Shown here: positions 45,460-56,144 of the stretch, piece by piece
Layout: each line of letters begins with the position of its first letter
Position numbering within the stretch: position 1 is the stretch's first letter
Assembly: GCF_000969885.1 (NCBI RefSeq)
Contig: NZ_CP009501.1
Span: 2,246,908 to 2,310,907 of the forward strand
Length of the DNA: 64,000 nucleotides
DNA from: Methanosarcina thermophila TM-1
GTDB lineage: Archaea > Halobacteriota > Methanosarcinia > Methanosarcinales > Methanosarcinaceae
Direction: 5' to 3'
Translations under genes and position numbers: made by a program
The notes under the pieces: model-generated
What the model saw: the letters and a program-made list of their open reading frames with translations, nothing else
Told to the model about the DNA's origin: nothing
Database searches by the model: none

Positions 45460-47625
45460 TTGTATATGAAAAATGTTTTGAGTACGAAAACTTCTCAGCC
45501 GCTCTTAAGCCTGCGGGAAATTCATGGAATTGGTGAACGGGTAGCTGACAAGCTGATTGAGCATTTCGGAACTGAAGATGCGGCTCTTCAGGCTATTTGC
45601 GAGGGGGATATAGCTTCGCTTTCGGAAATCAATGGAATTAGCCATAATTTCGCCCTCTCCCTTGCAAGAGAAGCCAGATCAAGAACCGAGGGCTGTTCAA
45701 TTTCTGATTTTCTCAAAACAAAAGAAGCCCTGGAACTTTATTCACGCCTGCTTGAGTTGATAAAGAGTTTTGCCCATACCACACATTCCAGGGACAGGTT
45801 GAACCTTTTTTACCCTTTACCTGCTTCGCGCATGGATCTGATACAGAAAAGGCAGGCTTTCATAGGAGAGTATCTTGAACTGGGAGAGGCTTTTTCTGAG
45901 AATTCCGAATTTCTGGACTTGCTTTCCAGGGTGAGAAAACTTAAACCGGTGCCGGCAAACCTCAGGGTCAGAGACCGGATAATTCTTTGCGGAGATCCAA
46001 AAATCCTGGAAGCAGCCAGAGAAAAGTTCCAGCCTTTTTTGCCTGTGCAGGGCGTAGAAGACTTCTCGGAGTTCGTAGATCTCGCAAGGGGCTACTCCAG
46101 TGTTATTGTTTTTGATGATACCTATCTTGGCTTTGACCTGCCTGAAGGCATTGAACCTGAGTATTTCCAGGACATCTCCAGGGCTGAATTCTGTCAGGTT
46201 TTGCCTGAAAAGGAACTGTCATTTTTTGCGCGGAATCTTTATTGCATCCGCGCCTGTTTGAATATAGTCTCGGCTCTACGCTCCCAGGGGTTCGGATTCT
46301 TTGAGGGATTCTCGGAAGAGAAGCTTGGCATACTCAATGCAGCTCTTTCAAAGCTCGGAGAAGATGGAAAGCCTGTTGAAGGTTTTGATCCTGAAATTGA
46401 TAGGCTTGGGGCAGCTCTGCAAAACCTTGACTCTGTATTGACTTCGGCTCTGAATGAAGCTAACCAGCGCATGAACCGAACCCTTGAGGCAAGTTCGCTT
46501 ACCCTGAGCGGGCAGGAACTCATCAAGCTTGTAAGCGGGGGAATGGAGATTAAAGACCTGCTTGCAAAAGAACTCGATAGGATTTATAAAACTGAGATTA
46601 AAGCTGTAAAAGAAGAGATCGCTGACAAGCTTGGGCTTCAGAAGCAGGAAAAATTAATGCTTGAGAGTCTTTTTCCTGATGAGATTTCCTATCCTCTGAG
46701 TGTGGACCAGTCACAGCTCCAGCTTCTCAGGCAAAAGCTGAACAATAGCCTTGAAAAAACAAGGCTTGCCCGAAAAAGAGAGCTTGCAAAAACGCTCTCA
46801 GCCTTTCACCAGCCAGTAGAACAACTTGTTAAAGAAATTCTAGATTTCGATTTGGGGTTCTCAATAGCATGTTTTTCGGCAAAATTCCAATTGAAGGTGC
46901 CGAAACTGATTCGTGAAACAGGAATAGGTTTTGAAGCTGGGGAAAACCTCTTTTTAAAAGCCCGTCATGGAGAAATCGATCCTGTGAGTTATTCCATTGG
47001 AAAAACCAGTTTTTCTCCTGCTGGTCTTGAAAACAGGGTTGTGCTTCTGAGCGGGGTGAATTCCGGGGGCAAGACTTCCCTGCTTGAACTCATTGCCCAG
47101 TGCGTAATCCTTGGATACATGGGCTTTCCGGTTCCTGCAAAAGAACTTGAACTCGGACCTGTTGAGGAATTTTACTACTTCGGAAAATCAAAAGGAACCC
47201 TGGATGCAGGAGCTTTTGAAACTACCCTTAAACAGTTCTCGATGCTTTCCGAAGTTTCGGGAAAACTGGTGCTTGCGGACGAACTGGAATCAATTACTGA
47301 GCCTGGAGCTTCTGCACGGATTATAGCAGGAATCCTGGAATACCTTTACAGAAATGAACAGAGTTTGGGAATTTTTGTTTCCCACCTGTCAGAGCTTATC
47401 CTTGAAAACACCGGGGCAGAGGTAAGGGTAGATGGAATCGAAGCCGATGGTCTGGATTCCAATCTGGAACTCATAGTTAACCGTAACCCTGTATACAATC
47501 GCATTGCTCGAAGCACTCCCGAGTTGATTGTGGAACGACTGCTCAGAAAAACCACCGGAAAAGAGCAGGAGTTTTATTCACATTTAAAGAATAAATTTAG
47601 AACTGGCACAAAAATGGACTCCTAA
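45460..47625 (+). CDS. HhH-MutS-like ATPase (archaeal MutS5-type)
   Basis: 721 residues. Two helix-hairpin-helix motifs at ~15-75 (IHGIGERVADKLIEHFG, INGISHNFALSLA) precede a core of lever-like helices and a MutS ATPase domain: Walker A SGVNSGGKTSLLELIAQ (~531), Walker B LVLADELES (~605), and HLSEL. The mismatch-recognition domain I is absent, so classical mismatch repair is unlikely; related archaeal proteins bind branched DNA. Start ATG at 45460 or 45466; both lack a strong ribosome binding site. Single gene ~45 bases after the hydrolase. Confidence 0.82.
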   Translation: MYMKNVLSTKTSQPLLSLREIHGIGERVADKLIEHFGTEDAALQAICEGDIASLSEINGISHNFALSLAREARSRTEGCSISDFLKTKEALELYSRLLELIKSFAHTTHSRDRLNLFYPLPASRMDLIQKRQAFIGEYLELGEAFSENSEFLDLLSRVRKLKPVPANLRVRDRIILCGDPKILEAAREKFQPFLPVQGVEDFSEFVDLARGYSSVIVFDDTYLGFDLPEGIEPEYFQDISRAEFCQVLPEKELSFFARNLYCIRACLNIVSALRSQGFGFFEGFSEEKLGILNAALSKLGEDGKPVEGFDPEIDRLGAALQNLDSVLTSALNEANQRMNRTLEASSLTLSGQELIKLVSGGMEIKDLLAKELDRIYKTEIKAVKEEIADKLGLQKQEKLMLESLFPDEISYPLSVDQSQLQLLRQKLNNSLEKTRLARKRELAKTLSAFHQPVEQLVKEILDFDLGFSIACFSAKFQLKVPKLIRETGIGFEAGENLFLKARHGEIDPVSYSIGKTSFSPAGLENRVVLLSGVNSGGKTSLLELIAQCVILGYMGFPVPAKELELGPVEEFYYFGKSKGTLDAGAFETTLKQFSMLSEVSGKLVLADELESITEPGASARIIAGILEYLYRNEQSLGIFVSHLSELILENTGAEVRVDGIEADGLDSNLELIVNRNPVYNRIARSTPELIVERLLRKTTGKEQEFYSHLKNKFRTGTKMDS

Positions 47626-47788
47626 GTAAATTTGAAATATATCCTAAAATATATTAAAAGAGACTTTCTATGGGAGTTTCCAGTTCTTTATTATAATCTT
47701 CCAGTAATTTTTTCCTTTTAACGCAGAGTCTCTTTTTTGTCTTTGTCAATAATCGATCTTAAGAGATAATGTTATAAATCTTTAGTAC

Positions 47789-48147
47789 TATATATTAATA
47801 AATAGTAGTGAGTTGGCGGAGATTCCGTAGAGTCCTGAAAGTCCGGTTGATACTAATTTGCACAGGCATTGGTGTCAATGCATCTCCAATAGCCTAATAT
47901 GGAGATTGCCTTCCCACTAAGCAGAGAATTCAAAACTCCAATCGGCTAAAAGGTTGAATAATTAAGGAAAAATTTGTATGAGGCTTCTCATTATTTAAGT
48001 TCACCCGGGGGCTATCTCCTTTTCAACCCAGTAAATCCGGGTGACAATAAGATAATGAAATCAAATTATGAAATGCAGAGATTCTCTCTTCAAGTCTTCT
48101 ATGGTTTTTTAAGACAGATCTAAAGAAGTGCAGAACCCAGGCCACGC
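47789..48147 (+). promoter_or_regulatory. ppk1 promoter and structured leader
   Basis: A TATA-like tract (ACTATATATTAATAAATA, 47788-47805) implies a transcript start near 47820-47830 and a ~320-base leader. Hairpins: GCATTG/CAATGC (47866-47871/47876-47881, loop GTGT); ATCTCCA/TGGAGAT (47882-47888/47900-47906); TCACCCGG/CCGGGTGA (48001-48008/48037-48044). GGAGAT at 47818-47823 could also pair with the same ATCTCC, allowing an alternative fold. It could be a cis-regulatory leader or a separate small RNA. No known riboswitch is recognised. The 160 bases before it (47626-47788) are AT-rich and empty. Confidence 0.4.
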
Positions 48148-50343
48148 GTGATAGTAATGGAGCGGAACTTCCCCATTCAGTGTGCAGATTCTGATAGGCT
48201 GGTTATGGATAACGTTGAAGGAGCTCGGGCAGAAGTTTCTCGCATGCCTGACCTCAGTGACCCGTGCTTATATACGGACCGGGAATACAGCTGGCTCCAA
48301 TTCAATAACAGGGTACTTGAAGAAGCTTTTGACGAGCGCAATCCCCTACTTGAAAGAGTCAAGTTTCTTTCGATTTTTGGAAGTAATCTTGATGAGTTTT
48401 TCATGGTCAGGGTTCCAGGCGTCCTGAAAAGAATAGCTGAAGCTCTAAAAGATGACAGGACAGACGAGCAGGCACAGGAACAGCTTCGTATTATCAGGCA
48501 AGAGCTTCTCAGGCAGCTTCCTCTCGTTGATAAATGCTGGAATGAGATCCTTGAACCTGCTCTCAGGGAAAAAGGAATTAAAGTTCTTAATTACTTTGAG
48601 CTTTCAGGGAAGGAAAGAGAAAAGCTTAGAGACCATTTCGAGAGAAATATTTTCCCTCTACTCACTCCTCTAGGCTTTGATTCAGGACGTCCTTTCCCTC
48701 ATATTTCCAACCTCAGCCTTAACCTTGCAGTACTGATTGATGACCCTGATTATGGGGAACGCTTTGCAAGGGTCAAGATCCCTCCAATGTTCACGAGACT
48801 TGTAGTCGTTCCTGAGGATGACCAGGAGAGAATAACCTCCAATCTGGAGGAACTGAAAACAGGACGTTTTGTCTGGCTCGAACAGCTTATAGCTGCAAAT
48901 CTTGACCTCCTGTTTCCCGGACAGCATATTCTCGGAGCCTACCCATTCAGGATCACACGCGATGCAGATCTCGGTTTTGATGAAGATGGGGACAAAGATC
49001 TTATGACAGCTGTAAAACAAAGAGTCGGCAGGAACTACTTTGGATCGGCTGTCAGACTTGAGACCGATTATACGATGCCTCCGAAAGTTTCGGATATTCT
49101 TCTTAAAAACCTGAACCTTACTGCTTCCCTTATGTTCAGGTCTGCAGCTCCTCTGGGGCTTTCAAGTCTCATTAAACTTGCACAGATTAACCGCCCTGAG
49201 CTTAAATATGAGCCCTTCGAGCCGAAAAAACACTCTCAACTGGCGAAAAGAGAGGAAATTTTTTCAGTTCTCAAAAAGCGAGACATTCTGCTTTACCATC
49301 CCTATGATAGCTTCGAATCGGTAATTGACTTTGTGGAGGAGGCTGCCGACGATCCTGATGTTCTGGCGATCAAAATGACCCTTTACAGGGTGGATGACAA
49401 TTCCAGAATTGTCCAGGCTCTTATGAGAGCAGCTGACCGGAGGAAGCAGGTAGCGGCTCTGGTTGAGCTTAAAGCCCGCTTTGATGAGGAAAACAATATA
49501 GGCTGGGCAAAAGAACTCGAACGCAAAGGGGTTCATGTAGTTTACGGTTTTCCGGGGCGCAAGACTCATGCCAAGATGTGCCTTGTGGTGAGAGCCGAAG
49601 AGGAAGGCATCAGATATTACGTGCATATGAGCACAGGAAACTATAACGCTGTCACAGGAAAGCTCTATACCGATATTGGTTACCTGACAAGCGATTCACT
49701 CATAGGCAAGGATATATCTGACCTTTTCAATGCCCTTACTGGATATTCGAGAAAAGACCATTATATCAAACTCCTTGTAGCCCCCCAGACTCTCAGGCAT
49801 CAGATCCTGGAGCGTATCAGGCGTGAAATTGACCTGCATGAGAAATATGGAAACGGACACCTTATCTTCAAAATGAATTCCCTTGTGGACTACCAGTGTA
49901 TCCGGGAACTCTACAGGGCTTCCAGAGCCGGAGTAAAGGTAGACCTTATTGTCAGGGGAATCTGCTGCCTCAAACCAGGTATCTACGGGCTCAGTGAAAA
50001 TATCAGGGTTACTTCGATAGTTGGGCGCTTCCTTGAACACTCCAGGATTTACTATTTCAGAAATGGCGGAAAAGAAGAAGTCTTTATTGGAAGCGCCGAC
50101 CTTATGCCGCGCAACCTGGACAACAGGGTAGAAGTGCTCTTCCCGGCATCTCCAGAATACATCCCCATCCTGAGAGATGTGATTCTTGGCACCCACCTCA
50201 AAGACAATGTAAAAGCCCGCCTTCTGCTTCCGGACGGCAGGACTGAAAGGATTTATCCGCAGCCCGACGAAGAAGAACTGGATTCTCAGTTGTGGATGCT
50301 TGAGAACAGCAGAAGCTGGGATTTAAGTTCTAGGAAAGAGTGA
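48148..50343 (+). CDS. ppk1: polyphosphate kinase 1
   Basis: 731-residue enzyme that polymerises the gamma-phosphate of ATP into polyphosphate. The N-terminal domain opens YTDREYSWLQFNNRVLEEAFDERNPLLERVKFLSIFGSNLDEFFMVR, as in other Ppk1. The catalytic His is in GRKTHAKMCLVV (~474); the second conserved His is in FLEHSRIYYFRNGG (~631); STGNYNAVT and SADLMPRNLDNRVE are phosphate-binding PLD-like motifs. Start GTG 48148 or ATG 48157. It heads a polyphosphate locus with ppx and the CYTH-CHAD protein. Confidence 0.93.
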   Translation: MIVMERNFPIQCADSDRLVMDNVEGARAEVSRMPDLSDPCLYTDREYSWLQFNNRVLEEAFDERNPLLERVKFLSIFGSNLDEFFMVRVPGVLKRIAEALKDDRTDEQAQEQLRIIRQELLRQLPLVDKCWNEILEPALREKGIKVLNYFELSGKEREKLRDHFERNIFPLLTPLGFDSGRPFPHISNLSLNLAVLIDDPDYGERFARVKIPPMFTRLVVVPEDDQERITSNLEELKTGRFVWLEQLIAANLDLLFPGQHILGAYPFRITRDADLGFDEDGDKDLMTAVKQRVGRNYFGSAVRLETDYTMPPKVSDILLKNLNLTASLMFRSAAPLGLSSLIKLAQINRPELKYEPFEPKKHSQLAKREEIFSVLKKRDILLYHPYDSFESVIDFVEEAADDPDVLAIKMTLYRVDDNSRIVQALMRAADRRKQVAALVELKARFDEENNIGWAKELERKGVHVVYGFPGRKTHAKMCLVVRAEEEGIRYYVHMSTGNYNAVTGKLYTDIGYLTSDSLIGKDISDLFNALTGYSRKDHYIKLLVAPQTLRHQILERIRREIDLHEKYGNGHLIFKMNSLVDYQCIRELYRASRAGVKVDLIVRGICCLKPGIYGLSENIRVTSIVGRFLEHSRIYYFRNGGKEEVFIGSADLMPRNLDNRVEVLFPASPEYIPILRDVILGTHLKDNVKARLLLPDGRTERIYPQPDEEELDSQLWMLENSRSWDLSSRKE

Positions 50344-51196: not shown

Positions 51197-51726
51197 TCTA
51201 TAATTATCTCTAAACTTATTTAAAATAAATTATATGAAAAATTGGCTGTGAGCAAATAATATTCAGATTTAAAATGTTATCTCATCAAGCAATATTTTAA
51301 ATATTAACTTAATTCAGATTCTCTTAAATATTTGATTCCATTTCAGATCTTAATTCCAGTCTTAACGCCCACACATCTGGCTTTCTCTGGAAAACATTCC
51401 AAAAAGTAATCTCAGCAGAGCTTCCATGATTAAAACAATGAGTCTATATTTTCCATTACAAGGGACTTAGTTTCTTTATAAAGAACTACAGAAAAAGTCT
51501 GAAGATTAGCTTTCCTTCTTAAAGCCCTTTTTTTATTAAGTGTATAAATAAGCAACCTATCCAATACATAGAATTATTTGTGCAGAAATAACAACAGCTA
51601 CAAACTTCCAATACACTACCAAATAACCTAAAATAGAATAAAAATATGAACTAGTAATGTGAAGCTTATTTTGAGTTTCTCGACTCCTTCGAGAAAAACG
51701 AGAGGCAGGGCTTTCAGGTGGTAATA
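51197..51726. other. spacer before ppx
   Basis: AT-rich, no open frame or tRNA seen. ppx promoter elements are probably in 51540-51700; several TATA-like tracts make the choice unclear. Confidence 0.35.
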
Positions 51727-53376
51727 ATGAAACCCGAGAAAATTTCCGAAGGCAGAGTTGTTGCATTTATTGATATAGGCACTAATTCGATCCGGCTTCT
51801 TCTGGTACGTATCAATCCCAATGGGTCTTACCTTCCCCTAACCAAGCAGAAGGAAACAGTCAGGCTTGGGGATCAGGGATTCATAGATCGGATTCTGCAG
51901 CCTAAAGCGATAGAACGCGCAGTTATTGTCTGCAAAAAGTTTGTGGAGCTTGCCAGGGCTTACAGGGCAGAGGAGATTATAGCTGTGGCAACTTCAGCAA
52001 CGCGGGATGCAAGCAATAAAGTTCAGTTTCTCGAAATGCTGAAAAGGGAGGCAAACCTAGAAGTCTGCCCAATTTCCGGAACAGAAGAAGCTCGCCTAAT
52101 TTACCTCGGGGTATCAAGCGGGCTCAGACTTGGGAACTCAAAAGCTCTGTTCATAGATATCGGGGGTGGGAGCACTGAATTATCAATAGGGGATCAGACC
52201 CGATATTATTTTCTTTACTCCCTTAACCTTGGGTCCATCAGGCTGACAAATATGTTTTTACCGGATGAAACAGGGCCTGTTTCTGAGGAACAATATGAGC
52301 GGATTAAACAATACATCCGTCATAAGCTTGCAGATGTAACAAAAGATCTTTCCAAGCACAGAATAAACTGTTCGATTGGAAGCTCGGGGACAATTGAAAA
52401 CCTTGCTAGGATCGCTTTTGTCTACTTGCACAAAACATCCCATGAAAACTTTGAGAAACTCGAATATGAAGACCTCAGGAAAATAGTCAGGGCAATGTGT
52501 GCTATACCTCTTGAAGAGCGGCGCAAATTCCCGGGAATTAATGCACAAAGGGCTGATATTATAATTGCGGGGGCTGCAATTATTGAAACTTTCATGGAAG
52601 AGTTTGGGCTTTCAGAAATCAGAGTTAGCAAACGCGGGCTTCGAGAAGGGCTGCTTGTAGATTATATATCAAAGAGCGAATTCTCCTACATGATTACGCA
52701 GATGTCGGTAAGAAAACGCAGCATCATGCAGCTTGGACTTATCTGCAACTTCGATGAGGAACATGCCCATACAGTCACCAGGCTTGCCCTTGAGCTTTTT
52801 GACAGTATTCAAGCGCTTGGGATTTACGAGTTCAAGGCAGGGGAAAGGGAACTTCTTGAATATGGTTCAACCCTGCATGACATAGGGACTTTCCTATCAT
52901 ATGATACCCATCAGGTACATGCTTATCACCTCATACGGGAGAGCAATCTTCCGGGTTTCCAGCCTGAAGAAATCGAAATAATAGCGAACCTTGCCTATTT
53001 CCACAGGAAAAACACCCCTAAGAAGAAACACCCCAATCTCGTTGGGCTTAACAAAGAAGTAATAAAAAGCATCAGGGTTCTGAGTGCCCTGCTCCGCATT
53101 GCCGAGGGTCTGGATCGCTCCCATAATGGAATTATTTCCCACGTTCGGTTTTATATTGCCTCTACCGACAGCCTGGTGCTTGAGATGCACGCTCAAAGGG
53201 AGTGTCAGTTAGAGATCTGGGAGGTAGAGAAACAGAAAAAGTACTTCAAAAAAATGTTCGGGTATGATCTTCAACCTAAAGTTATTATAAAACGTGATGA
53301 AGGCGTTCCCTTAGCCCTTGAAGGCAGTGCTGAACTTGAGAAAATCTCAGGAGTTGAGGTATCTTCAAAAAGCTAA
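51727..53376 (+). CDS. ppx: exopolyphosphatase (Ppx/GppA family) with C-terminal HD domain
   Basis: 549 residues. Two ASKHA phosphate loops: AFIDIGTNSIRLLL (~14) and LFIDIGGGSTELSIG (~143); Glu in ISGTEEARLIYLG (~120) is catalytic. From ~320 a helical HD-type domain carries LHDIGTFLSYDTHQVHAYHLI (~382) and AYFHRKN. It hydrolyses terminal phosphates of polyphosphate and possibly pppGpp-like nucleotides. ATG at 51727 follows CAGGTGG by six bases; the GTG at 51718 overlaps that site. Between ppk1 and the CYTH-CHAD gene. Confidence 0.92.
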   Translation: MKPEKISEGRVVAFIDIGTNSIRLLLVRINPNGSYLPLTKQKETVRLGDQGFIDRILQPKAIERAVIVCKKFVELARAYRAEEIIAVATSATRDASNKVQFLEMLKREANLEVCPISGTEEARLIYLGVSSGLRLGNSKALFIDIGGGSTELSIGDQTRYYFLYSLNLGSIRLTNMFLPDETGPVSEEQYERIKQYIRHKLADVTKDLSKHRINCSIGSSGTIENLARIAFVYLHKTSHENFEKLEYEDLRKIVRAMCAIPLEERRKFPGINAQRADIIIAGAAIIETFMEEFGLSEIRVSKRGLREGLLVDYISKSEFSYMITQMSVRKRSIMQLGLICNFDEEHAHTVTRLALELFDSIQALGIYEFKAGERELLEYGSTLHDIGTFLSYDTHQVHAYHLIRESNLPGFQPEEIEIIANLAYFHRKNTPKKKHPNLVGLNKEVIKSIRVLSALLRIAEGLDRSHNGIISHVRFYIASTDSLVLEMHAQRECQLEIWEVEKQKKYFKKMFGYDLQPKVIIKRDEGVPLALEGSAELEKISGVEVSSKS

Positions 53377-53450: not shown

Positions 53451-56144
53451 TTAATAGAGATTTTTTATTGCACTTTCAATCCGTTCCCTGAAGTTTCCAT
53501 TTCTTATCCTTTTCCAGGCTTCGGGAAAGGTGTTAAGTAATGTTTGGAGTTCTTCCTCCCTGTACGCTAGATAGGCTTCTATTCCTTCTGCCCCTGCAAG
53601 AAACTTTTTTTTTCCTGAATTTTTTTCATTCTCGACAGGGCCCCATTCCCCGGTTCTCAGGTAAGAGCTCAGCAGATCAACTGCAATCACCGCATCGTGC
53701 AGATTTCCAAGGTGATCCTGAAAAGCTTTAAGCTCCTTAATCAGGTCTTTTATATCTTCCCCAAGTACGCTCTCAAAAAATTCGAGAGTATAACGCATTT
53801 CCTTGGCTGCAATCCTGAGCCTGTGCAGGCGTTCAACAGGAAGATAAGGTCCCTCTACCCATTCGGAGTAAGCATTGATATCTGCTAAACGTGCATAAAG
53901 GATAGACGGAAGAACATCTTTTACCCTGTGTGGCAAAGCGTCATGTTTTTCGTTAGTTGCAGGACGGATCAAGCTCTCTGGGGAGGCAAGTGCATCCGAA
54001 AACTCCTTCTTGAAAGTCCGGTATTTTTCTCTTTCAAGATAATCAAGCATATTTTTCCTGGCTTTTTCTCGCTCGTCGGCAAGCACTGCAAAAAGCGGGT
54101 CCAGATCATGCTCATGTCCAGGAGGAAGGGTTTTCAGGTATTCTTCGGTTTTTTCGCGGAAAACGTCGAGATCCCTGACCTTTCCAAGTGAACTAAGGGT
54201 TCTTCTGAGTCCTTTGAGGTGAGGTTCAAACTGTCTGGAATCAAGATAAGTCTCAAAAACCTTTGCTGCCGCTCTCATTCTGCGGACTGCGACCCTCATG
54301 TTGTGTAGTTCTTCAATGTCTTTTCCTTTTATAGTTCCTCTCTCATAGGATAGCATGCTGGAAAATTGATTATAAAGTATCCTGCAGGCAAGCCCTGCCA
54401 TAGAGTCAGCAGGTTTGACAGTTATCTCTGCAAGTGCTCTGCACTTTCTCTTTTCTTGTTTCTTTTCTTTTTCAGCTTTTCTTCCTTCTGTTTTTCTCTC
54501 TTCTAGCTCTTTCTCTTCTCTGGGCTGCTCCTTTTCTGTCTTTTTCTTTTCTCTGGATTGATTTTTCTCTGTTTTTTTCTCCTTTCCAGCCGGTTTCTTT
54601 GTTCCTATTTCCTTTGCTTCGGATTTGTTTTCGTCCAGGGGTTCTTCTTCCTCAGTAACCTGAGAAAATATAATTTTGCTTCCGTAGAGAAATTTCCAGA
54701 GCTTACTTCTCGCCTCAAACTTTTTTGCAGCTTTTTCAGTTATAGTTCCTGTTATTTCTATTTCAAGAGCGTCTTTAAGCTGCCTTGTCTTTATAGGTCG
54801 GGCATCGGAAGCTTCGAGAAGGGCTGCAATTGACATAATGGCTGCAAGCACCAGGGCTTTACTTTGGAAATCGGGGGGCAGCTTCGTATGGAAACTTTTA
54901 AAGACTGAGCTTAGATCTTTTTCGTTTAAACACGAATCCTGAATTTCAGCGATCAGGGCGAGCATCAAATTCTCGTGGAGCCTGAGTCCCTTTATGGAGT
55001 GAGTCATGAAGATTTCTCTATTTATACGGGCGCTCTCTTCAGGGAAGATTGAGTTACCCGCATCCTTCAGGAGAGCTGCAATCCCGAGGAGCTTTCTCTC
55101 CTCCTGTCCAAGTCCGTGGCATAAAAGCAGTTCATCAAAAAGTGTAAGAGCGTATTCCCTGGTTTTTTCTGCCCTGATTTTATTTATCCCATAATACTCA
55201 AGCAGGCTTTCAGTGTCCCATTGCTTAAATTCTATTGCTTCCTTTTCATTTCTCAAAACAAAGTTTTTCCCGGATTGGAGATGGAACTCACGGTCTTTTT
55301 CTTTATATGTGGCAAAAGGAAAAATAGAAAGCCTTTTTTCTTTAAATTCTGAGTGCAAGGCTTTGATTTCACCTTTAGAGACATTTAGAAGCCTGCTGAG
55401 CTCCTCGCAGGTCTGCCCCCGGTCGAGTCCTGCTAAAATTTGAGCCTGTTTTCCATATACATTTTTCTGATCTGCAAGCTGTGAGCAAAAAGCCCTTTCT
55501 CTCAAACTAAGCAAGGTTTTCTCAGGAAGTTTTTCCATGAAAAGAAAGGCTCTCTCGAACTTGGAAAAAGGGCTTTCTGTCAGGTTATAGTGCTTGAGCA
55601 GGAAATTCCGTATATTCTCAAGATCCTCAGAGTTTCCTTCGCTTTTAAGTTCGACTTCAAATTCATTATAATATTTTTCTCTGCCTCCACTTCTCAGGTT
55701 TACCCTATCCAGGTAAGCTTCTGCTACAAACCTATTCCTTATTTTTATCTGGCGTGTAATCCTTTTCTGTTTGAGGGACAGAAGTGGAAAAAGCTCAAGT
55801 CCGGCTGTAAGCTCCAGAACCATATTTCTGATACGGAAATCAGGACATTCGATCACGGATTTCCCCTCAGGTAGGAAACTTACATACTCCTCTCGCCTGT
55901 GAGTCCCACTTTCAAAACCTCCCAGACTTTTAATAGTTACCCAGCTTCCATCTTCTCCAAATGTTTTTCTGACCCGCAGATAATAACCTGAAGCCATAAT
56001 AGCCCGATTTTCAGTATCAAAAAAAATGTCCTCGTTTAACTGGATTTTTGGCTCAGAGAGGGTGTATGAAGCAAGCTCAGAGAGGCTTTCTAGAGCCTGA
56101 AAATCCGCTTCTTCAGTTACCAGAAACTTCGACTCTATCTCCAT
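53451..56144 (-). CDS. CYTH - HD-like - CHAD fusion protein
   Basis: 897 residues. CYTH domain at ~1-210 with the ExExK start (MEIESKF) and internal acidic/basic strands (YYLRVRKT, WVTIKSL, FEVELKSEG), the triphosphate tunnel fold. Residues ~225-285 look helix-turn-helix-like (CEELSRLLNVSKGEIKALH). Residues ~310-500 resemble the HD-type domain of Ppx, but the HD pair is lost (LLKDAGN). A Lys/Glu-rich linker (~505-585) leads to CHAD (~590-890) with ELHNMRVAVRRMRAAAKVFE and LHRLRIAAKEMRYTLEFFE, the His/Arg/Lys helices that bind polyphosphate. Likely a polyphosphate-bound triphosphatase or scaffold; converges on ppx. Confidence 0.85.
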   Translation of the reverse strand: MEIESKFLVTEEADFQALESLSELASYTLSEPKIQLNEDIFFDTENRAIMASGYYLRVRKTFGEDGSWVTIKSLGGFESGTHRREEYVSFLPEGKSVIECPDFRIRNMVLELTAGLELFPLLSLKQKRITRQIKIRNRFVAEAYLDRVNLRSGGREKYYNEFEVELKSEGNSEDLENIRNFLLKHYNLTESPFSKFERAFLFMEKLPEKTLLSLRERAFCSQLADQKNVYGKQAQILAGLDRGQTCEELSRLLNVSKGEIKALHSEFKEKRLSIFPFATYKEKDREFHLQSGKNFVLRNEKEAIEFKQWDTESLLEYYGINKIRAEKTREYALTLFDELLLCHGLGQEERKLLGIAALLKDAGNSIFPEESARINREIFMTHSIKGLRLHENLMLALIAEIQDSCLNEKDLSSVFKSFHTKLPPDFQSKALVLAAIMSIAALLEASDARPIKTRQLKDALEIEITGTITEKAAKKFEARSKLWKFLYGSKIIFSQVTEEEEPLDENKSEAKEIGTKKPAGKEKKTEKNQSREKKKTEKEQPREEKELEERKTEGRKAEKEKKQEKRKCRALAEITVKPADSMAGLACRILYNQFSSMLSYERGTIKGKDIEELHNMRVAVRRMRAAAKVFETYLDSRQFEPHLKGLRRTLSSLGKVRDLDVFREKTEEYLKTLPPGHEHDLDPLFAVLADEREKARKNMLDYLEREKYRTFKKEFSDALASPESLIRPATNEKHDALPHRVKDVLPSILYARLADINAYSEWVEGPYLPVERLHRLRIAAKEMRYTLEFFESVLGEDIKDLIKELKAFQDHLGNLHDAVIAVDLLSSYLRTGEWGPVENEKNSGKKKFLAGAEGIEAYLAYREEELQTLLNTFPEAWKRIRNGNFRERIESAIKNLY

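Follow-up and report, generated by a model that had tools for sequence, protein, structure and literature searches.

How is ppk1, the gene for polyphosphate kinase 1, controlled in Methanosarcina? RNA-seq in M. mazei reports that its mRNA falls 4.2-fold in phosphate starvation and rises 5.7-fold upon re-feeding, and the text of that study states the mechanism of this response to be unknown (PMC6864096). A cadmium study of M. acetivorans reports increased ppk transcripts at day 14 (PMC6821655), and a half-life study of the same species speculates on riboswitches, in passages that do not name ppk1 (PMC5112694). Our literature search found no title on either the promoter or the leader of ppk1 in this genus. 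Here we turn to the DNA itself, in a window of 64,000 nucleotides from M. thermophila TM-1, whose genome is a single contig of 3,127,379 bases. The interval of interest separates a MutS-domain gene (45460-47625) from ppk1. For this gap an original prediction, made from the letters of the window, had proposed a structured leader of three hairpins, in which a GGAGAT could compete for an ATCTCC arm and which might act as a switch responding to a ligand or to phosphate.

The identity of the gene, as that prediction gave it, is confirmed: the product scores 808.9 bits against TIGR03705, whose cut-off is 465.85. The start region is strongly conserved, with a weak AGG as the sole possible ribosome-binding site of the GTG codon (48132-48157) and an in-frame ATG nine bases after it. 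Downstream of ppk1 lie a ppx/GppA exopolyphosphatase gene with an HD domain (51718-53376), which begins 1.37 kb past the end of ppk1, and a gene for a CYTH-CHAD protein (53451-56144); the neighbourhood is therefore a polyphosphate cluster. One 5.8-Mb member of the genus also carries a second, partial ppk1-like stretch (G001:C1:2900189-2900767), with 79% identity to residues 23-215 and one stop, which is probably a gene remnant.

The gap is matched in 27 of 30 genus genomes, and in all 27 it lies between the MutS-domain gene and ppk1. The comparisons below draw on two alignments. The first, A2, holds 25 of the 27 loci and omits L026 and L027 as divergent or deleted; the second, A3, holds 27 sequences, namely the 25 of A2 together with L026 and L083, and omits L027. 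A tree-based helix scan and a survey of leader-folding z-scores use 26 sequences (A2 plus L083). Loci L159 and L160 are judged by eye, unaligned, and the repeats of L159, L164, L160, L162 and L165 (L085, L088, L089, L090 and L092, respectively) are counted once. The region upstream of ppk1 in G027 stands outside the comparison. Table 1 collects the features discussed in the text.

Table 1. Features of the ppk1 upstream region, in window coordinates; promoter blocks, start sites and helices are predictions.
Feature	Position	Strand	Description
P1 promoter block	47759..47816	+	AAGAGATAAT..TTATAAATCTTTAGTACTATATATTAATAAATAGTAGTGAGTT; ~58 bp; conserved, one strong site per genome
Predicted P1 transcription start	47817 (about 47814-47820)	+	placed by the usual archaeal TATA-to-start spacing
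P2 promoter block	47842..47891	+	in relatives, TATA string in CAAAAGTYTATATA context, then GTGTCAATGCATCTCCGAT; TATA decayed in the window; start predicted ~47887
Hairpin 1	47847..47878	+	TTGATAC 47847-47853 / GTGTCAA 47872-47878
Hairpin 2	47882..47906	+	ATCTCCA 47882-47888 / TGGAGAT 47900-47906; near hairpin 1
Helix A, 5' strand	47899..47906	+	ATGGAGAT; candidate pseudoknot
Helix B, 5' strand	47952..47958	+	GGTTGAA; candidate pseudoknot
Hairpin 3	48002..48043	+	TCACCCGG 48001-48008 / CCGGGTGA 48037-48044
Helix A, 3' strand	48014..48021	+	ATCTCCTT; within conserved block 48012-48031
Helix B, 3' strand	48022..48028	+	TTCAACC; best duplex of the leader alignment
T tract	48104..48109	+	~40 nt before the start codon; at least 5 T in 23 of 25 leaders
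ppk1, polyphosphate kinase 1	48148..50343	+	GTG start; Pfam PP_kinase domains and TIGR03705

All of the strings named in the original prediction are present in the window: three hairpins, two of them close together, the complementarity of GGAGAT (47818-47823) to ATCTCC (47882-47887), and a TATA-like tract (~47772-47799). Taken together, the elements of structure are close to chance. The leader region contains five perfect stems of at least 6 bp with loops of up to 40, compared to a mean of 2.9 in 500 shuffles, 17% of which reach five. Equal-sized tiles of the window average 3.4 such stems, and 25% of the tiles reach five. Stems of at least 7 bp number two, compared to 0.8 in shuffles (19%). 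The minimum free energy of the whole region is -82.2 (z -0.55), and 28 of 100 shuffles fold equally well. The sole local standout is the region of hairpins 1 and 2 (47840-47910), whose z of -2.85 is reached by 1.3% of 300 shuffles; for the region of hairpin 3 (47990-48050), z is -1.57 (6.3% of shuffles). The z-scores of the first 110-nt stretch are -2.8, -1.8 and -2.5 in L001-L003, and the remaining 23 sequences span -1.8 to +1.9, so that the local strength of hairpins 1 and 2 is mostly a trait of the window's own lineage.

The pairings themselves are poorly kept in relatives. Over the 25 aligned leaders, the proportion of cells that pair is 73% for hairpin 1, 81% for hairpin 2, 71% for hairpin 3 and 71% for the GGAGAT switch. 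Changes on both sides of a pair occur in none of the seven pairs of hairpin 1, in one of six for hairpin 2, and in one of six for the switch, the same as in shuffles. Strands permuted within clades pair as well in 99.9% of cases for hairpin 1, 50% for hairpin 2 and 12% for hairpin 3, which gives no clear sign that their strands co-evolve; for the switch the value is a borderline 5.5%. The original prediction had itself named compensatory changes in related genomes as its touchstone, and for hairpins 1 and 2 and the switch these are largely missing. Hairpin 3 fares unevenly: four of its seven pairs have changed on both sides, but 29% of its cells fail to pair, and its strength is concentrated in the window's clade (mean own duplex -11.0 vs -2.4 kcal/mol). 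Conserved secondary structure with covariation is thus not what we find at the three hairpins. Nor does the full leader show any excess folding across the 26 sequences surveyed (mean z +0.22); the consensus fold over 25 sequences reaches only -5.9 kcal/mol, none of the 226 helices in the tree-based scan of 26 sequences has more than three double changes, and the leader matches no Rfam family. The existence of the elements, the local folding of the first two hairpins and the borderline value for the GGAGAT pairing speak for a ligand- or phosphate-responsive hairpin switch; given the loss of pairs in relatives, the lack of excess folding or an Rfam match, and a hairpin strength mostly confined to one lineage, we regard such a switch as very improbable.

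Two other candidates were tried and set aside. The consensus fold pairs the block at 47872-47881 with the GTG start region in 22-25 of 25 sequences per pair, but both sides are nearly invariant; this pairing is further weakened by a permutation value of 15% and by its lower strength in L010 and L083. A short upstream ORF that begins in GTGTCAATGCATC varies in length between clades, as judged by eye.

Where, then, does conservation lie? The profile of between-clade identity across the gap peaks at ~47762-47816 (0.82-0.98), 47867-47906 (0.77-0.89), 48012-48031 (0.80-0.83) and the start codon region, with a weaker rise at 47942-47966 (about 0.72-0.74), and the spacers between these blocks are poorly conserved. 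The first peak corresponds to the block that we call P1; nothing else in the gap is as well conserved, and 28 of its columns are invariant among 27 sequences. It contains two TATA candidates, TTATAAAT (47772-47779) and CTATATA (47788-47794), the latter 360 bp before the GTG codon. The part of the original prediction that had a long leader begin at an upstream TATA element therefore appears likely. By a hand count, 22 of the 26 positions of 47784-47809 are self-complementary. Four sister-genus genomes preserve the 34-bp core of P1 (AAGAGATAAT through CTATATA) but diverge in the right part of the block, and the near-palindrome at the TATA region is therefore limited to this genus. Because the two TATA-like strings overlap, the position of the P1 start is uncertain; if TTATAAAT is the TATA box, the predicted start moves to ~47802.

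P1 is also specific to ppk1. Searched with a model of the block, R1, 27 of the 30 genus genomes each yield a single strong site, always before ppk1 and with an E-value of 7.3e-13 or better; the other three yield only weak matches. In the window's own genome the ppk1 site has an E-value of 2.4e-18, and the next match, at E 0.026, falls within a long coding sequence. R1 finds the block before no other phosphate gene of this genome, and no second convincing site at any of its genes that would indicate a shared operator, although a short operator could escape such a search. The idea of a ppk1 regulon was likewise dropped: beyond the R1 result, a plain pattern search gave nine matches, compared to 12 for a reversed control. 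As a separate observation, five of 12 weak sites examined (L042 1501-1525, L167, L168, L171 and L172, in five different genus genomes) have the left part of P1 (TTAAGAGATAATTATACAAATCTT) immediately upstream of a DNA-polymerase-IV-like (dinB) gene; this sharing may reflect a common promoter type or a common operator.

The second identity peak holds another TATA-bearing block, P2. A TATATA or TTATAT string lies 62-86 bp after the P1 TATA, mostly 70-75 bp, in 25 of 28 genus sequences (the string of L022 being scored from the printed sequence by eye) and in all four sister-genus sequences. In the window this string has decayed to TTTGCACA (47857-47864), where relatives have TTTATATA or TCTATATA. 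The other two exceptions are L002, which has TTTGTATA, and L027, in which the region is deleted; all three keep P1. A conserved TATA element upstream of the gene, which characterizes archaeal promoters, is thus found at P1 and, across relatives, at P2, but not at P2 of the window. Since the window's P2 is decayed, P1 should carry most of the transcription in its own species. The converse arrangement is also found. In L159 and L160 the upstream sequence, including the MutS-domain gene and P1, has been replaced, and P2, identified by eye, is kept about 422 bp (L159) and 306 bp (L160) from ppk1; the replacement in L160 looks to the eye like a tnpB gene end. The loss of P1 or of P2 in different lineages fits two promoters, either of which would be sufficient.

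We consider it probable, at roughly 0.6, that ppk1 is served by two tandem archaeal promoters, P1 followed by P2, with a ppk1-specific block at P1, and that the hairpin switch is no conserved part of this arrangement. What we observe in its favor is the conservation of the blocks, the uniqueness of P1, the spacing of the two TATA strings, and the natural variants without P1 or without P2; from these sequence patterns we infer the promoters and their start sites. The interval would then be the transcription-control region of ppk1; the original prediction was right in taking it as regulatory and probably transcribed, and wrong on its particular switch. Starts at P1 would give a leader of ~330 nt and starts at P2 one of ~260 nt, so that ppk1 probably has a leader of ~260-330 nt. 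The conserved block around the P1 TATA would bind a putative regulator as well as the basal factors TBP and TFB, and P1 is probably the binding site of such a ppk1-specific regulator; P1 would also mediate the published phosphate response. Counting against this reading are L027, which lacks the P2 region and retains P1, the uncertain start at P1, and the absence of the P1 block, within the reach of R1, from other phosphate genes; the conserved blocks could instead be operators or RNA elements.

The identity peaks that remain after P1 and P2 coincide with the strands of two candidate long-range helices, A and B, which suggest an RNA layer in the leader besides the promoters. Helix A joins the 3' arm of hairpin 2 to a second ATCTCC at 48014-48019, and the loop of hairpin 3 contains the 3' strands of both helices. 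Since the GGAGAT at 47901 can pair either locally, in hairpin 2, or with the far strand of helix A, the idea of alternative pairings in the leader survives in another form: the exchange between GGAGAT 47818 and ATCTCC is not supported, and a different long-range pairing is better conserved. Because their 3' strands adjoin and the order A5-B5-A3-B3 crosses, the two helices together would make an H-type pseudoknot, which would lie downstream of both predicted starts. The two helices were picked from the same alignment that was then used to assess them. The helix B duplex has a mean of -10.55 and a worst species of -6.5 kcal/mol over 25 species, and beats all 40 column-shuffled nulls (best -9.84), a null that preserves the composition of each column and, beyond it, only neighbouring column pairs. 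Helix A ranks first of the seven eight-column window pairs with at least 85% pairing. Jointly, 92% of cells pair over 25 species, compared to 47-61% when the strands are slid by 1-3 columns.

Other measures are less favorable to the helices. Most measures of A and B pairing are reached by 19-89 of 500 shuffles, and the covariation score by seven of 500. Compensatory changes are few: in helix B they occur in L015 and L018, in helix A one pair varies as A-U/G-U/G-C, and L026 shows a change from A-U to G-C. The permutation value of helix A is 22% with 25 sequences and 0.18% with 27, the register of the L010 and L083 3' strands having been adjusted manually in the larger set. For helix B two runs of the test give 7.5% and 20%, its 5' strand in the 27-sequence test having been chosen by best consensus fit, which favors pairing. 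Helix A is rich in purines, and other partners reach 87-89% pairing with it. As judged by eye, the helices are broken or missing in L159, L160, L027 (helix A) and L026 (helix B). Support for the candidate pseudoknot is suggestive, not decisive.

How far might RNA structure, rather than promoters, account for the conserved gap? One reading is that the leader also acts as an RNA, in which the pseudoknot of A and B controls elongation, stability or translation of ppk1, the T tract perhaps serving as an attenuation site. The column-shuffle, ranking and sliding results for the helices argue for it, as do the compensatory changes that exist and the fact that their adjacent 3' strands fall in the leader's best-conserved block. 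The T tract has exceptions in L018 and L025, and between-clade identity there is no higher than in its surroundings. Because compensatory events are few, permutation values vary and the helices are broken in some loci, we treat them as a rival or additional layer, possible but somewhat doubtful. The bolder proposal that a pseudoknotted leader RNA gates ppk1 throughout the genus, for instance by guiding elongation beyond the T tract, and so turns on polyphosphate synthesis when phosphate returns, seems to us unlikely. We also weigh the reading that P1 drives a separate small RNA ending before ppk1, while P2 or another start drives the gene itself. M. mazei is reported to have more than two hundred small RNAs (PMC5378194), and conserved blocks do lie between P1 and ppk1; but the region has no Rfam match and no conserved stable fold, the spacers between its blocks are poorly conserved, and with the window's P2 decayed ppk1 would be left without a visible promoter. 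We consider such a small RNA quite unlikely, and prefer the tandem promoters.

The tandem promoters may be compared with systems already described. Alternative starts and long leaders are reported as ordinary in Methanosarcinales (PMC5378194, PMC2838876); in Methanolobus, 14% of genes are reported to have several starts with their own promoters, and long leaders are described as well (PMC5378194). The ppk1 region resembles the TATA promoters of these reports in its TATA-bearing blocks, more than one per gene, and in a leader of hundreds of bases; it differs in that P1 is conserved over ~58 bp, far beyond the TATA box, and stands only before ppk1. With the riboswitches and structured leaders of Rfam it shares a long leader of a metabolic gene and a possible pseudoknot, but it has neither an Rfam match nor a strong consensus fold, and no recurrence is seen before other genes. 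With the phosphate-starvation stimulon of M. mazei it shares a response to phosphate, although the study reports that ppk1 responds oppositely to pst and phoA (PMC6864096), and P1 is not found before other genes.

Repeats also occur in the leaders of relatives. In a sister-genus ppk1 leader (L162, 122-385) a 28-base unit is repeated nine times, and similar units are visible in L164; smaller tandem duplications occur in L010, L013, L014 and L024.

These results narrow the search for ppk1 control to a ~58-bp block that has no other convincing site in the genome, to a probable second promoter and to a small candidate element of RNA. They also identify natural variants: P1 is missing from two species, and the P2 TATA has decayed in two others. 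If the pseudoknotted leader were real, it would be a new class of phosphate-responsive archaeal leader, fed by two promoters.
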